Positions 41,273 through 47,074 of a stretch of 64,000 nt of DNA are shown piece after piece. Each line of letters starts with the position of its first letter. Positions within the stretch are counted from its first letter, which is position 1. Source of the stretch: Catenulispora pinistramenti (GTDB taxonomy: Bacteria > Actinomycetota > Actinomycetes > Streptomycetales > Catenulisporaceae). Under the pieces are notes generated by a model that saw nothing but the letters and a program-made list of their open reading frames with translations, did not search any database and had not been told where the DNA came from. The position numbers and the translations under genes are program-made. The stretch covers positions 1-64,000 of the forward strand of contig NZ_JAAFYZ010000012.1 in the NCBI RefSeq assembly GCF_018274385.1. Direction: 5' to 3'.

Positions 41273-41977
41273 ATGGCGAGAGCAGGGGCGATTGTGCGTG
41301 TGACGGTGCGGACGACCGGCGAACTGCTGGTCACGTTCTCGGTGTTGCTGGTGCTGTTCATGGTGTATCAGCTCTATTACACGAACGTGCTCGGCCGGGA
41401 CGCGATGAACCACGAAGTCAGCTCGATGCAGCGGCAGTGGTCGGCCACCGCGCCGGCGAGCCCGGCCGCCCCGGCGCCGCACGGCCAGTCCGCCCCGGTG
41501 GTGCTGCCGCCGCCGCAGCCGCTGCGCAACGGTGACGACGTCGCGATCCTGCGCATCCCGCGCCTGGGTTCCAGCTTCGGCGACACCGGGGTCCCGGTGC
41601 TGGAGGGGGTCGGCCTGGACATCCTGAACCGCGCGACCGGCCACTACCCCGGCACCGCGCTGCCCGGCCAGATCGGCAACTTCGCCGTGGCCGGGCACCG
41701 CAAGACGCACGGCGAGCCGTTCCGGCACCTGGACGAGATCCGGGCCGGCGATCTGGTCTACGTCGACACCGAGGCCGCCACGTACACCTACCAGATCGAC
41801 ACGGACCCGGTGATCGTGCAGCCCACCGATCTCGGTGTCGTGGATCCGGTGCCGGGCAAGCCCGGAGTACCGCCGACCCAGCGTCTCATCACCCTGACGA
41901 CCTGCAATCCCTGGTGGTCCTCCACCCAGCGGATGATCGTGACCGGCCACTTGATCTCGGTGACTGCTCGCAGATGA
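41273..41977 (+). CDS. Class E sortase
   Basis: A 234-residue membrane transpeptidase. An N-terminal helix (LLVTFSVLLVLFMVYQLYY) is followed by a Pro-rich stalk and the sortase beta-barrel. The catalytic His is in NFAVAGHRKTHGEPF, and the catalytic Cys is in LTLTTCNPWWSSTQRMI, whose TTCNPWW sequence is a mark of the class E group. It joins surface proteins to cell-wall precursor lipid II. Family members mostly favour LAXTG signals, whereas the next gene encodes an LPHTG protein, suggesting it as the natural substrate. It opens the surface-protein block. Confidence 0.92.
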   Translation: MARAGAIVRVTVRTTGELLVTFSVLLVLFMVYQLYYTNVLGRDAMNHEVSSMQRQWSATAPASPAAPAPHGQSAPVVLPPPQPLRNGDDVAILRIPRLGSSFGDTGVPVLEGVGLDILNRATGHYPGTALPGQIGNFAVAGHRKTHGEPFRHLDEIRAGDLVYVDTEAATYTYQIDTDPVIVQPTDLGVVDPVPGKPGVPPTQRLITLTTCNPWWSSTQRMIVTGHLISVTARR

Positions 41978-42054
41978 CTATTGACACTTCGTCAGATTCC
42001 TCCGTCAATGCCTAGGCACCTCTTCGATCTGCCGTTCGATGTCAGGAGGCATCC

Positions 42055-42948
42055 ATGAGTGGTCATCAGATCCTTATCAAGCGCGCGACCTGGCGCGCGA
42101 CCGCGTTCGGGGGCGCGGTGACGGCCGCCGCGGTATCGCTGGCGGTGTTCGCGCCGACCGCCAGCGCGGGCACCGTGAGCGTCGGCTACGGCAGCTGTAC
42201 CAGCAGCAACACCGCGCTCACCCCGCCGCCGCCGGACTACACCTCGCAGGTGACGCTGACCCCGCAGGGTTCTTCGTTCCAGGTGGGCAAGGCGATCACG
42301 ATCACCTGGCACTACTCGACCTCCACCGCGCCCCCGCCCGGCATCCCGCTGGCGAACGTGGCCTCCGCGAAGGCGAAGATCGTGATCGGCGGCGCGGCGA
42401 GCTCGACCATCAGCACCGGCTCGTCGGCGAACTTCCCGCCGGCCCCGGTCGCCACCGGCGGGACGTTCCAGATCCCTGATATGACCGCGACGTTCACGCC
42501 GACCGCGGCCGGGACCTACACGCTGACCCCCGGCGACAACGAGCAGGACATCACGCAGTTCAGCCTGGTCGTGGCCTGTAAGGCCTCTGCGTCCGGTCCG
42601 GCGGCCACGATCACCGTGGCTCCGGGCTCCGGCGGCGGCACCAGCTCCTCCCCGTCCAGCAGCTCGCACTCCTCCAGCAGCACGGGTACTTCGTCGGCGT
42701 CGGGTTCGAAGTCGTCCTCGGGCTCCTCGGGCACCTCGTCCTCCTCGACGTCGGCCGCCGGCACCGAGGGCTCCTCGACGGCGGGCGACACCGGATCGAC
42801 GCCCGCCCCGACCAGTTCCTCGACCGCCGGCGAGCTGCCGCACACCGGCTTCGACGGCCGCTGGCTGTTCGGCGGCGCGGTGCTCGCGGCGGTCCTGGGC
42901 GGCACCGGTCTGTACGCCACCCGGCGCCGGCCCGGAAACCACGGCTGA
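42055..42948 (+). CDS. LPHTG-anchored surface protein
   Basis: A 297-residue exported protein: signal peptide (ending ASA), one Ig-like beta domain (about 40-180, with YGSCTSSNTALTPPPPDY and ITWHYSTSTAPPPGIP), a Ser-rich stalk of about 60 residues, then the sorting signal ELPHTGFDGR, a hydrophobic helix and the charged tail ATRRRPGNHG. LPHTG fits the LPXTG motif. GGAGG precedes ATG 42055. Its N-domain is clearly homologous to that of the following gene (43279). Anchoring by the adjacent sortase is expected. Confidence 0.9.
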   Translation: MSGHQILIKRATWRATAFGGAVTAAAVSLAVFAPTASAGTVSVGYGSCTSSNTALTPPPPDYTSQVTLTPQGSSFQVGKAITITWHYSTSTAPPPGIPLANVASAKAKIVIGGAASSTISTGSSANFPPAPVATGGTFQIPDMTATFTPTAAGTYTLTPGDNEQDITQFSLVVACKASASGPAATITVAPGSGGGTSSSPSSSSHSSSSTGTSSASGSKSSSGSSGTSSSSTSAAGTEGSSTAGDTGSTPAPTSSSTAGELPHTGFDGRWLFGGAVLAAVLGGTGLYATRRRPGNHG

Positions 42949-43278
42949 GCCGAAGCGCTTGCGCGAATCGGCGGCCGGGCGGGCTGAGCGGCCTCGGAGA
43001 ACCAGCCCCGGCGAGTTTTCCGTGCGCCGCGGCGGCTGTGTCGCCTGAGCCGGACCGGCCGCCAATCCGCGCATGTTCTAAGAACCCTGCTCTAAGAACC
43101 CTGATCCATCTGCCCTGGCGTGTCGCGGCGGCGGCGCGAGCGCTCGAACGTGTGTATTGACTTCGCGACCGAGCTGTCGGTGAATATCTGACACTCCATC
43201 AGAACCGGTGTACGACAACCCACCCTGCGGGCCGCCGGCCCGTGGGTTTGTCACCCCCTCAAAGAGAGGGCACCACTC
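42949..43278. other. Intergenic region before the WxL-like gene
   Basis: 330 bases with no gene. It contains a two-copy repeat of TCTAAGAACCCTG (about 43077-43103), a TTGACT at 43157 with a distant TATCTG, and the hairpin listed separately. Otherwise I see nothing. Confidence 0.55.
43217..43248 (+). promoter_or_regulatory. Leader hairpin upstream of the WxL-like gene
   Basis: AACCCA / TGGGTT and CGGGCC / GGCCCG stems separated by a five-base bulge, with a GCC loop. It lies 16 bases before GAGAGGG (43264-43270), the ribosome site of the next gene. It may be a terminator of the upstream gene or a leader element. Confidence 0.45.
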
Positions 43279-44964
43279 GTGAGACAAGGGTTCAGAGATC
43301 GACACCGAACCAGATCCGGCCGGGCCATGGCTCTGGCCGGGACGCTCGCGGTGGCCTTGGCCACCGTGACCGCCCTGGCCCCCGCCGCCTCGGCCGGTAC
43401 GACGACCGTGGACTTCGGGAGCTGCACCAGCAGCAACCCGGCGCTCGCGGCGCCGCCGCCGGACTACAGCAGCCAGGTGACCCTGACCCCGTCGGCGGCT
43501 TCCGTCGCCGTCGGGTCGCCGGTGACCATCACCTGGCACTACTCGCTGTCCACGGCACCCTCGCCCGGCATTCCGATCGCCGACGCGGCCACCGCCAAGG
43601 CGGCGATCGTGGTCGGCGGGGCGGCCAGTACCACCCTTTCGGCCGGGCCTTCGGCGGCGTTCCCGCCGGCCCCGGTCGCCACCGGCGGGACGTTCCAGAT
43701 CCCGGACTTCACCGCCACCTTCACCCCCACGACCGCCGGCACCTACACGTTCACGCCCGGGAACAACGAGCAGGACGTGGCGCAGTTCGGCATCGTGATC
43801 CAGTGCGCGGCCAGCGGCGCGAGCGCGGCGGCCACCGTCACCGCGACCAACGCCTCGGCGTCCGTGGGCAGCGCGTACGTGCGGCCCGGCGGCACGGTCG
43901 GCTTCACCGGCGCGGGCTGGATCGCCGGGGAGACCGTCACCCCGTCGTTCAAGGACAGCGCGGGCACCGCGACCACCGGAACGGCGATCACCGTCCCGGC
44001 CGGCGGCGCCGTCTCCGGTTCCCTCGCGGTTCCGGCCGCGGCGGCAACAGGTGCCGGTTCCCTGGTGCTCACAGGGAGCACGAGTGGAGCGGTCCCCACC
44101 GCGGTCACCGTGTTGGGCGCGCCGACGCTGAGCGCGTCGCCGTCGTCCGGCGGCCCGGGCACCGTGGTCGGTCTGTCCGGCGGTAACTGGGATCCCGGCG
44201 CGACCGTGGCCGTCAGCGGCGTGGACGCGTCCTCCAACCCGGTCGGCAGCAGCACGACGCTGACCGCGGACGCCTCCGGCCACCTGTCCGGCAGCTACAC
44301 GGTGCCGGGCACCGCGATCGCCGCCATCGGGGCCGCGGAACTGGTCGGCGGCGCGCCGAGCACGACGTTGCGCGCGGCGGCGGCTTTCACCTTCGCCGGT
44401 AACGCCTGTACCGCGGACGCGGCCGGTGCGCCGGTCTCCGCGACCGGTACATGCTCGGTGCCGCAGAGCGCCAACGTGACCGTCAGCGGCGGTCCGTTGC
44501 AGCTGAAGGAGAACACCGGGGCGGTGACGTTCCCGGGCGTGACCCTGGACGGCACCGCGCACAACCAGGCCGGGTCGCTCCAACAGGTCGAGGTCCAGGA
44601 CTTCCGCGGCACCACCGACGGCTGGGTCCTGAACGCGACCATGTCCGATCTGGCGCTCACCGGCGGCCCGTACGCCAACTCCGGCGCCGCGCCGATCCCG
44701 GCCGGCGACGTCTCGGCGAGCGCTCTGAAATGCGCCGGAAACCCGGCCGGGACGACGCCGTATCCGTCGACCCCGACAGCCGGCTCCGGCGGTGCGTTGA
44801 GTCCCACCACGGCGATCACCCTGTGCTCGCAGGCGGCGGGCGGGACCAACCCGCCGACCGTCACCGGCGGGGACTTCCTCGTCGACGCCGGGCTGAACCT
44901 GTCGGTCCCCGCGTATCTCCTGCAGGGCACCTACACCGGCACGGTGACCATCACCCTGCAGTAA
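43279..44964 (+). CDS. Secreted protein with Ig-like domains and WxL-like C-terminal domain
   Basis: A 561-residue exported protein without a sorting signal or C-terminal helix. After the signal peptide (ASA) comes an Ig-like domain close in sequence to the LPHTG protein's (FGSCTSSNPALAAPPPDY), then two Ig/IPT-like modules, then a C-terminal domain of about 180 residues. That domain carries VQDFRGTTDGWVLNATMSDL, where WVL fits the first WxL motif, and ends VPAYLLQGTYTGTVTITLQ, like the end of WxL domains but with TIT in place of the second Trp motif. WxL domains attach non-covalently to peptidoglycan or to WxL-interacting proteins such as the next gene's product. GTG 43279 follows GAGAGGG. 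Confidence 0.8.
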   Translation: MRQGFRDRHRTRSGRAMALAGTLAVALATVTALAPAASAGTTTVDFGSCTSSNPALAAPPPDYSSQVTLTPSAASVAVGSPVTITWHYSLSTAPSPGIPIADAATAKAAIVVGGAASTTLSAGPSAAFPPAPVATGGTFQIPDFTATFTPTTAGTYTFTPGNNEQDVAQFGIVIQCAASGASAAATVTATNASASVGSAYVRPGGTVGFTGAGWIAGETVTPSFKDSAGTATTGTAITVPAGGAVSGSLAVPAAAATGAGSLVLTGSTSGAVPTAVTVLGAPTLSASPSSGGPGTVVGLSGGNWDPGATVAVSGVDASSNPVGSSTTLTADASGHLSGSYTVPGTAIAAIGAAELVGGAPSTTLRAAAAFTFAGNACTADAAGAPVSATGTCSVPQSANVTVSGGPLQLKENTGAVTFPGVTLDGTAHNQAGSLQQVEVQDFRGTTDGWVLNATMSDLALTGGPYANSGAAPIPAGDVSASALKCAGNPAGTTPYPSTPTAGSGGALSPTTAITLCSQAAGGTNPPTVTGGDFLVDAGLNLSVPAYLLQGTYTGTVTITLQ

Positions 44965-44996
44965 CGCGCGCAGCGCCGATCTGATGGGGAGCAAGG

Positions 44997-45039
44997 GGCT
45001 TTCCGGTGGGGCGAGGTCCATTCGCCCCACCGGAAAGCC
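44997..45039 (+). terminator. Strong 18-bp hairpin between WxL-like and DUF916 genes
   Basis: A perfect 18-bp stem (44997-45014 with 45022-45039) and a 7-base loop, 32 bases after a stop and 32 bases before the next ribosome site. It should lower read-through into the DUF916-like gene, but could also act as an attenuator. Confidence 0.8.
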
Positions 45040-45083
45040 ACAGCCATGAGTACCACACCGGCCCGTTTGCCGAGGAGATCGTT

Positions 45084-46136
45084 GTGGAGAGCAGTAGAGA
45101 GAACGCGGTGGTCCGTCGTGGTCTACGGGCCCGTGCTGTGGCGGTGTTCTTGGCCGCGACGCTACTTGTCGGCGTCTCCGTCGGTTCCGGGAGCGGAACC
45201 GCTGAGGCGGACAGCGGATCCTGGTCGGTACAGCCCGCGCCGAAGCCGGGTTCGCCGGCCGGCGCGCGCCAGTACTTCATCCTGGAGGGCCGCCCCGGTA
45301 CGACACTGCAGGACGGCCTCGCTCTGTCGAATTACACCTCCCACCCGATGACGTACTACGTCTACGGCGCCGACGGCTACAACACCCCCGGGGACGGCCA
45401 GTTCGCGCTGCGGGACCACGGCTACCCGATGACCGGCGTCGGCTCGTGGGTGCGCGCCGCGTTCCCCACGATTACCGTCCCGGCGCGGACGTCCACTGTT
45501 GTGCCGATCTCTATAGCGATTCCCGCGAACGCCTCCCCGGGCGACCATGTCGGCGGCGTCTCAGGGATGGATACCGCCGTGGAGAGCGTGCAGCAGCAGG
45601 GCGACATCCGGGTCGGTATCAAACGTGTGGTCGCGGCCCGACTCTATGTGCATGTCGACGGCCCCGCGCTCGGCGGGCTGACGGTCACGGATCTGAAAGT
45701 CTCGGGTTCTGCGTCATTCCCGGCCTATGTGAGTGACAGTGACGGGACGGTTACTGCGACGGTCACTAATAGCGGCAACTTGCTGGAGTCCCCTAAAGCG
45801 CATCTCCGTGCGACGGGAATCTTCGGGACGCTGATAGACCGGACGGTTCAGCTTCCACAGATCCTGCCGGGACAGAGCATCCATTTTTCCCAGTCGTGGA
45901 AGAACATGCCGCCCTTTGAGATCGGCACTCTGCATCTCGCCGTCACGGACGACTCCGCTTCTGCTCCGGTGACATCAGCGGCGGCCCTGTCGCTGGTGCT
46001 GATTCCGTGGCTCACGCTGCTGGTCCTCGTGCTCGCGGGGCTCGCGGTCCTGGTGGGGCTGGTGTTCTGGCGGCGCCGGAAGGGCCCGGTGCGGGTCCGC
46101 GTCCGGCCCGAGCCGACGAAGGCCGCGGCACCCTGA
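45084..46136 (+). CDS. DUF916/WxL-interacting-type membrane-anchored protein
   Basis: A 350-residue exported protein: signal peptide, an immunoglobulin-like domain with LSNYTSHPMTYYVYGADGY and VPARTSTVVPISIAIPANASPGDHVGGVSG, a second beta domain, a C-terminal transmembrane helix (LIPWLTLLVLVLAGLAVLVGLVFW) and a basic tail. This is the layout of WxL-interacting proteins (DUF916 peptidoglycan-binding domain plus host-binding domain) that pair with WxL proteins in Firmicutes. GTG 45084 with GAGGAG at 45072-45077 is chosen over an upstream start. The stop overlaps the next start by one base. Confidence 0.82.
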   Translation: MESSRENAVVRRGLRARAVAVFLAATLLVGVSVGSGSGTAEADSGSWSVQPAPKPGSPAGARQYFILEGRPGTTLQDGLALSNYTSHPMTYYVYGADGYNTPGDGQFALRDHGYPMTGVGSWVRAAFPTITVPARTSTVVPISIAIPANASPGDHVGGVSGMDTAVESVQQQGDIRVGIKRVVAARLYVHVDGPALGGLTVTDLKVSGSASFPAYVSDSDGTVTATVTNSGNLLESPKAHLRATGIFGTLIDRTVQLPQILPGQSIHFSQSWKNMPPFEIGTLHLAVTDDSASAPVTSAAALSLVLIPWLTLLVLVLAGLAVLVGLVFWRRRKGPVRVRVRPEPTKAAAP

Positions 46137-47074
46137 TGCGCAGGCTGACCGCAGCCGCCGTGGTGGTACTCCTGGCCGTCCTCTGCGCCGGGTCTGCGGC
46201 GGCTCATGCGACCGCTGACGGTCCCACCCTGGCGTTGTCCCAGGACACGGCGAAGCTGGGGGACCACATCGGGGTGACCGGGAGTGGGTTCCCTATAGGG
46301 ACGCAGCTACAGGTCGAGATATGCGGGATCGGGGGATCGTCGAACTCCTGCGCCATCGCGGCGGCGGTGGACGCGACGGCGGACGTCCACGGCGGCTTCC
46401 ACCAGACCCTGCCGGTGGTGGAGCCGCCGACGCCGTGCCCGTGCACTGTGCATGCGGCGCCCTACGCGGGTACCGCCGCGGATCCTGTAGACGTCCCGAT
46501 CAGCATCCCAGGCCTGCGCTACCTGCCGCAGGCGGCACCGGCCGTGGCCGGGACGGCGCAGCTGACGGACGCCACCGCCGTCCCCGACTCCCCGTTCCTG
46601 ACCCAGCTCGGAGCGGACGGCTCGGCGCGCGTCACGCTGACCTTCGCCGACCTCGGCGGCGGTCCGGCCCCTGATCCCGGCGTCACGCTGACACTGTCGC
46701 GCGGCGGTGCGCAGGTCGGACGGTATCCGGTGACCTGGACCGGCGGCGCCCTGGCGCCGGGCGGACGCAGATCACTGGTGTACGAGGTCTCGCTGCCCGG
46801 CGGCTGGTTCCGCGACTACGAGATCGGGGTCGCGCTCGGTTCCACGGCCGGCGGGGTCACCGTGCGCACCCTGTCAGCGGCCGTACGGCCCTGGGGCGAG
46901 GTCCTGGCGCCGTTGCTGCTGCTCTGCGGTCTCGGGTGCCTGTTCGGCGCCCGCAGGCGCGGTACGGCCGTCCCAGAGCCCTTCCCGGCCGAGCCGGGGA
47001 TCCCGCCAGCGGCCCCAGAACCCGAAAACGCGACGGCTGAGACGCCTGAGACTGTTGAGAACGGACCCTCATAA
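46136..47074 (+). CDS. Membrane-anchored surface protein, last gene of the WxL-type block
   Basis: A 312-residue exported protein: signal peptide (ending AAA), a domain opening LALSQDTAKLGDHIGVTGSGFPIGTQLQVEICG that resembles neocarzinostatin/IPT-like beta folds, a second beta domain, then a membrane helix (VLAPLLLLCGLGCLFGA) and a Pro/Glu-rich tail inside the cell. Translated in overlap with the DUF916-like gene (TGATG). I infer a structural partner in the same surface complex; it matches no family I can name with confidence. Confidence 0.8.
   Translation: MRRLTAAAVVVLLAVLCAGSAAAHATADGPTLALSQDTAKLGDHIGVTGSGFPIGTQLQVEICGIGGSSNSCAIAAAVDATADVHGGFHQTLPVVEPPTPCPCTVHAAPYAGTAADPVDVPISIPGLRYLPQAAPAVAGTAQLTDATAVPDSPFLTQLGADGSARVTLTFADLGGGPAPDPGVTLTLSRGGAQVGRYPVTWTGGALAPGGRRSLVYEVSLPGGWFRDYEIGVALGSTAGGVTVRTLSAAVRPWGEVLAPLLLLCGLGCLFGARRRGTAVPEPFPAEPGIPPAAPEPENATAETPETVENGPS

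Follow-up and report, generated by a model that had tools for sequence, protein, structure and literature searches.

A stretch of 64,000 nucleotides from Catenulispora pinistramenti (contig NZ_JAAFYZ010000012.1, positions 1 to 64,000; called the window below) carries five consecutive plus-strand open reading frames (ORFs) at 41273-47074, encoding the proteins P0001 to P0005 (genes 1 to 5; Table 1). This locus probably encodes an actinobacterial scaffold for display at the cell surface, homologous to the WxL/WxLIP system (WxLIP, WxL-interacting protein), with the parts proposed for it in a preliminary description of the sequence, which held in large part. The motifs on which that description relied (TTCNPWW, LPHTG and DFRGTTDGWVL) and the C-terminal ...GTYTGTVTITLQ were all found in the window translations. 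The order of the five genes was kept in nine Catenulispora genomes, the window genome included (11.46 Mb, the scope of all whole-genome counts given here), and the arrangement is therefore not due to chance. A single-protein scan with gene 3 gave matches only in Catenulispora, the named relatives being those of C. pinisilvae (97%) and C. rubra (91%). Relatives were taken from 77 actinobacterial loci, with profiles iterated from genes 3 and 4; 'Streptomyces-type' refers to loci of one family (f2) within the same order.

The WxL-like protein P0003 and the WxLIP P0004

P0003 consists of a signal peptide, an N-domain, a neocarzinostatin-like immunoglobulin (Ig) domain (43831-44118, residues ~185-280, E 0.0045), a second Ig domain and a C-terminal WxL-like domain, the last occupying residues ~396-561 of 561 and thus falling within the 160-190 aa expected of C-terminal WxL domains. 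P0003 by itself matched the WxL family PF13731 below the curated cut-off (E 2.4e-4; 21.6 bits versus 25), while 25 of its 40 WxL-like relatives matched this family at E<=0.01 (best 5.9e-15), with no other family listed. A PF13731 scan of the window genome missed the domain, which was recovered by a profile built from the family alignment. The first motif, VQDFRGTTDGWVL, carries Asp(W-8), Arg(W-6) and Trp-x-Leu, the signature noted for canonical WxL domains (PMC9772566, PMC1534035); in the aligned columns of the 40 relatives, Trp was present in all 40, Asp(W-8) in 37 and Arg(W-6) in 34. The WxL-like profile matched the WxL chain 9i25_A weakly, around this first Trp (E 0.087). A full-length model of P0003 reached a predicted local distance difference test score (pLDDT) of 80, with blocks of the C-terminal domain at 72-96.

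P0004 showed the same pattern, with a single-sequence match to the WxLIP peptidoglycan-binding domain PF06030 below the curated cut-off (E 7.9e-5; 23.1 bits versus 27.3) and matches in 40 of 43 WxLIP-like relatives (best 2.4e-12), so that the DUF916-type domain was recognised at the level of the family. Counted from the GTG at 45084, the protein has 350 aa and a transmembrane (TM) helix at residues 262-285 of the model, in line with the 337-365 aa and C-terminal TM helix of WxLIPs. The AlphaFold2 model of P0004 (pLDDT 91) found as its top solved match the Enterococcus faecium WxLIP 9i25_C, a chain crystallised on a long WxL protein (Foldseek E 2e-12); the superposition covered both Ig domains (residues 1-261; 233 residues, Z 17.7, root mean square deviation 5.2, identity ~15% over the aligned fold), and the next unrelated row had a Z of 12.4. 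PDB sequence searches with P0003 or P0004 as single sequences gave no match, while the profiles did match: that of P0004 found 9i1y/9i25_C at E 4.8e-13, in an alignment that included the YF-x-L strand close to the N-terminus. The WxL/WxLIP homology of the P0003/P0004 pair, which the preliminary description had put forward, is established at the family level.

The window genome contained a single WxL-like domain and a single WxLIP, encoded by adjacent genes. Iterated profiles detected a WxLIP in all 77 collected loci and a WxL-like domain in 56 of them. Among 396 Actinomycetota genomes, a WxLIP (counted by PF06030 hits) was found in 33, a WxL-like domain in 36 and both in 24 (Fisher p 2e-22, a nominal value since the genomes are related). 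A WxL-like domain lay 96-374 bp upstream of 33 of 46 WxLIP hits, on the same strand, and none lay downstream within 3 kb; the conservation of neighbourhood expected in the preliminary description thus extended from the genus to phylum-wide adjacency. Candidate natural WxL-WxLIP fusions were rejected, the long frames concerned (for example, L126 and L127) being merely upstream-extended ORFs.

The sortase, the LPHTG protein and P0005

P0001 was identified as a full class E sortase (NF033747, 240.6 bits versus a cut-off of 160), as originally proposed, with the active-site motifs AGHR (catalytic His) and TTCNPWW (catalytic Cys). These motifs were intact in 9/9 Catenulispora loci, in each of which the sortase gene adjoins that of the LPHTG protein. 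The tail of P0002 (297 aa, including a folded domain of ~140 aa) runs from LPHTG through a hydrophobic segment to RRR; its match to TIGR01167 was weak (E 0.03), and LPHTG-FDGRW was kept in all nine Catenulispora orthologs. The N-domain reported as shared by the LPHTG and WxL-like proteins was borne out, with 67% identity between genes 2 and 3 across 162 aa, and was also found in WxL proteins and LPxTG/LAxTG proteins of the Streptomyces type.

On sequence grounds, P0005 is a newly recognised recurrent partner of WxLIP; the preliminary description listed the protein but did not recognise this recurrence or its WxLIP-like second domain. Its first half (46136-46430) is neocarzinostatin-like (NF040680, E 8.9e-7), and its second domain resembles WxLIP residues 154-242 (hhalign E 5.6e-6, probability 85.6). 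Members of the P0005 family adjoined a WxLIP in L061-L070, L095, L101, L117, L120, L121 and L128-L137, that is, in Catenulispora, 12 Streptomyces-type loci and three more distant loci (L101, L117, L121); no mention of the family was found in the literature surveyed. The ortholog in L135 also matched the neocarzinostatin family PF00960 (E 1e-4), and enediyne apoproteins may have been derived from neocarzinostatin-like surface Ig domains of this kind.

Proposed assembly and alternative explanations

In the proposed scaffold, P0004 would be anchored in the membrane through its C-terminal helix, and its first (DUF916) Ig domain would bind the WxL-like domain at the end of P0003, by analogy with the E. 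faecium WxLIP-WxL crystal 9i25. P0003 would project its two Ig beads and N-domain outward through the wall, while P0002, with the same N-domain, would be covalently attached to peptidoglycan, for which the neighbouring P0001 is the simplest candidate. P0005, the second domain of which resembles that of WxLIP, could be an additional scaffold or stabilising subunit, and the N-domain may serve in adhesion or hyphal-surface assembly.

Several observations weigh against this reading. The second WxL motif, which is part of the WxL definition and was described in all 33 canonical proteins (PMC9772566), is missing, the Trp being replaced by Ile in P0003 and by L, I, V, F, E, T or Q, never W, in the 40 aligned actinobacterial relatives. 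The alteration seen in the preliminary description is thus general in the actinobacterial members examined, and because the second motif belongs to the definition, the domain is called WxL-like here and treated as a sister of the canonical form. Fold matches of the P0003 model (complement-like and other Ig strings) covered essentially the Ig beads and left the WxL fold of the C-terminal domain unconfirmed; this search neither supports nor excludes such a fold. In P0004, the Pfam HBD (DUF3324) model found no match, and it matched 2 of 43 relatives. The window genome encodes no small WxL protein, its single WxL-like domain being that of P0003. The correlation between the distance matrices of 54 WxL/WxLIP pairs (Mantel r 0.93) counts in favour of the scaffold but reflects co-inheritance as well as interaction, and is compatible with binding without proving it. 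The WxL-less loci, the sorting signal and the two further class E sortases discussed below also weigh against the reading.

In the main rival, which shares this general picture, P0004 would have as its chief partners the proteins that bear the N-domain (P0002, and P0003 through its own copy), with the WxL-like domain serving only as a wall-binding tail and the N-domain as a unit displayed on WxLIP and P0005. Twelve Streptomyces-type loci (L095, L120, L128-L137) would fit such an arrangement, as they keep an LPxTG N-domain protein, a WxLIP and a P0005 family member without any WxL domain, and mostly add an LAxTG protein with two N-domains; such WxL-less clusters were not foreseen in the preliminary description. 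A further role of WxLIP in binding or positioning the N-domain protein is therefore possible. Across the phylum, however, WxLIP accompanied WxL even where no N-domain was detected (most of L096-L118), and in 9i25 it is WxL to which WxLIP is bound, so that we regard the N-domain proteins as rather unlikely to be the principal partners. It is highly improbable, and already contradicted, that these are Ig-like surface proteins unrelated to the system, which came to resemble it in a WxL-like motif by chance or convergence: P0003 and P0004 individually fall just under the Pfam cut-offs and Ig folds are common, but the matches at the family level, a fold match far above other rows, the Asp/Arg/Trp signature and the phylum-wide adjacency speak against it.

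More room is left for doubt about the anchoring of P0002: the locus could be a general unit of the hyphal or spore surface that depends on sortases, with P0002 anchored by one other than P0001. The characterised class E sortases (Streptomyces coelicolor SrtE1/E2) prefer LAXTG through a conserved Tyr (PMC5148588), a rule from which the linked candidate substrate LPHTG departs; the window genome has two further class E sortases (three full ones in all), and no sortase was found near the Streptomyces-type LPKTG/WxLIP clusters. The conserved sortase-LPHTG adjacency throughout the genus argues in favour of P0001, and anchoring by another enzyme is considered possible, though short of probable. Outside Catenulispora, an active-looking sortase stood beside a WxLIP only at L103 among the 77 loci. 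Because of this near-exclusive occurrence, the LAXTG preference of class E and the other class E sortases in the genome, the sortase is seen as a lineage-specific addition, and P0002 as a substrate of P0001 is likely but unproven. Of the 'dedicated' sortase of the preliminary description, the linkage and the LPHTG signal held within the genus; it did not prove general, and since the neighbour carries LPHTG rather than LAXTG, the adjective is unproven.

Variant loci, regulatory elements and known systems

A second WxL/WxLIP pair was observed in seven loci of the genus (L071-L077; for example, L071:2641-9148), within an operon of the order PstS-like substrate-binding protein (SBP), WxL, WxLIP, sortase-like protein and PstB (TIGR00972, 347 bits), most of these loci also holding a short extra WxL-like gene. 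Their sortase homologs lacked the catalytic His and Cys motifs in 7/7 cases and are apparently a conserved pseudo-sortase. In the window genome, a sortase-like gene with 33% identity to the pseudo-sortase was found with PstB (L153:7318-9034), and no WxL, WxLIP or SBP partners were detected beside it. At L097:2487-6973, a HupE/UreJ-domain protein, probably with His at its mature N-terminus (Ang-2-like, compare PMC12537917), is followed by a 670-aa WxL-like protein and a WxLIP. In L079, L081, L083 and L084, the Streptomyces-type WxL-WxLIP pair lies near era, a neighbourhood that the DUF916-Era 'fusions' in InterPro for some Streptomyces (PMC10582724) may reflect.

The chances appear roughly even that WxL/WxLIP is an old Gram-positive display module, of which Actinomycetota have a single-Trp version with an undescribed third core subunit (the P0005 family), plugged into varied cargo. 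Such cargo would be the sortase-anchored N-domain proteins in the window, the PstS-like protein with a catalytically dead sortase in the second Catenulispora locus and the HupE/UreJ (Ang-2-like) protein elsewhere. If this is true, the system would be a scaffold for displaying cargo and not a device for host adhesion or virulence. Published WxL proteins come almost entirely from gut-associated Bacilli and have been interpreted as host-binding platforms; the soil-actinomycete setting is at odds with a host-adhesion reading, and the conservation of a WxL-like/WxLIP pair there and in genomes of the Streptomyces type speaks for a broader function in wall display. The pair also suggests that the system can do without the second WxL motif, and a recurrent new subunit joins its known parts. 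One common domain would link a sortase-anchored protein with a WxL-type protein, a link that is testable.

Two palindromes and a hairpin were found between the genes (Table 1). The palindrome upstream of gene 2 occurred at 9 sites in the 11.5-Mb genome, versus 1 for a reversed control pattern. In 9/9 Catenulispora loci and 12 Streptomyces-type loci, a CTGAYGNYCCRTCAG-like palindrome preceded the WxL gene by 74-108 bp, with scores of 12-15 there and <=11 in 96% of random windows; it was noted near WxL genes of two families, in the window and in L079-L093. The palindrome was not supported as a mark of a surface-protein regulon, the other seven genomic sites lying near acyl-CoA ligase/dehydrogenase, integrase-like and other genes; it may act as operator for a regulator with a broader reach. 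The hairpin between genes 3 and 4 was present in all nine loci of the genus, with a conserved loop and paired arm changes, and may set the WxL-to-WxLIP expression ratio. The GTG start of gene 4 is preceded by GAGGAG, an alternative in-frame GTG (45006) sitting within the hairpin, and genes 4 and 5 overlap at TGATG.

Table 1. Genes, domains and sequence elements of the locus, in window coordinates
Feature	Position	Strand	Remark
Gene 1, P0001, class E sortase	41273..41977	+	NF033747 profile
Palindrome TGACACTTCGTCAG before gene 2 (overlaps a TTGACA-like box)	41982..41995	+	conserved in genus
Gene 2, P0002, secreted N-domain, Ser-rich stalk and LPHTG anchor	42055..42948	+	
Palindrome CTGACACTCCATCAG, 76 bp before the start of P0003	43188..43202	+	
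Gene 3, P0003, CscC-like large WxL-type protein	43279..44964	+	
P0003 N-domain, residues ~40-178, a paralogue of the P0002 ectodomain	43396..43812	+	
P0003 C-terminal WxL-like domain (W1 motif DFRGTTDGWVL; Ile in place of the second Trp)	44464..44961	+	
Perfect 18-bp inverted repeat in the gene 3/gene 4 gap, terminator- or stabiliser-like, no U-run	44997..45039	+	z -6.1
Gene 4, P0004, WxLIP (CscA/DUF916-type), two Ig-like domains and C-terminal TM helix	45084..46136	+	
WxLIP peptidoglycan-binding (DUF916) domain of P0004	45225..45560	+	PF06030
Gene 5, P0005, neocarzinostatin-like domain, domain like the second of WxLIP, TM helix and cytoplasmic tail	46136..47074	+	

The locus can be set against four described systems. 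The 'WxL domain' reported for Rv0071 (PMC6347829) was discarded as a relative, being a VDP-repeat peptide with no resemblance to the P0003 domain. P0001 is, like SrtE1/E2 of S. coelicolor (PMC5148588), a full class E enzyme by NCBIfam, and differs in its linked substrate, LPHTG instead of LAXTG. The Ang-2 copper proteins with DUF916 neighbours (PMC12537917) likewise place DUF916/WxLIP near surface cargo in Actinomycetota; the section consulted counts DUF916 neighbours and does not describe the WxL partner, and no Ang-2 occurs at the window locus. With the csc (cell-surface complex) clusters (CscA-D) of Lactiplantibacillus plantarum (Siezen 2006, PMC1534035), the locus shares the combination of a CscA-like protein (P0004), a CscC-like protein (P0003) and an LPxTG protein; it differs in having no CscB, in including a class E sortase and in P0005, of which no description was found there. 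CscD is an LPxTG peptide of 90-140 aa, unlike P0002 with its folded domain, and a WxL cluster is delimited as one WxLIP with two or more WxL proteins, one of them small, whereas a single WxL-like domain was found genome-wide. Because there is neither a small WxL protein nor a peptide of CscD size, the locus falls outside both the csc and the WxL-cluster definitions, and the designation 'csc locus' is not supported. Compared with the WxL/WxLIP clusters of Enterococcus, Listeria and Lactiplantibacillus (Hassan 2022, 2023; PMC9772566, PMC10599100; 9i25, 9i1y), the Catenulispora locus has no second Trp, one WxL protein with no small WxL, an extra partner in P0005 and a soil actinomycete as host instead of a gut commensal. 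It has in common with them the C-terminal WxL-type domain with DxRG...GWxL, a WxLIP modelled as two Ig domains with a C-terminal TM helix, the adjacency of the genes and the secretion of all the products.

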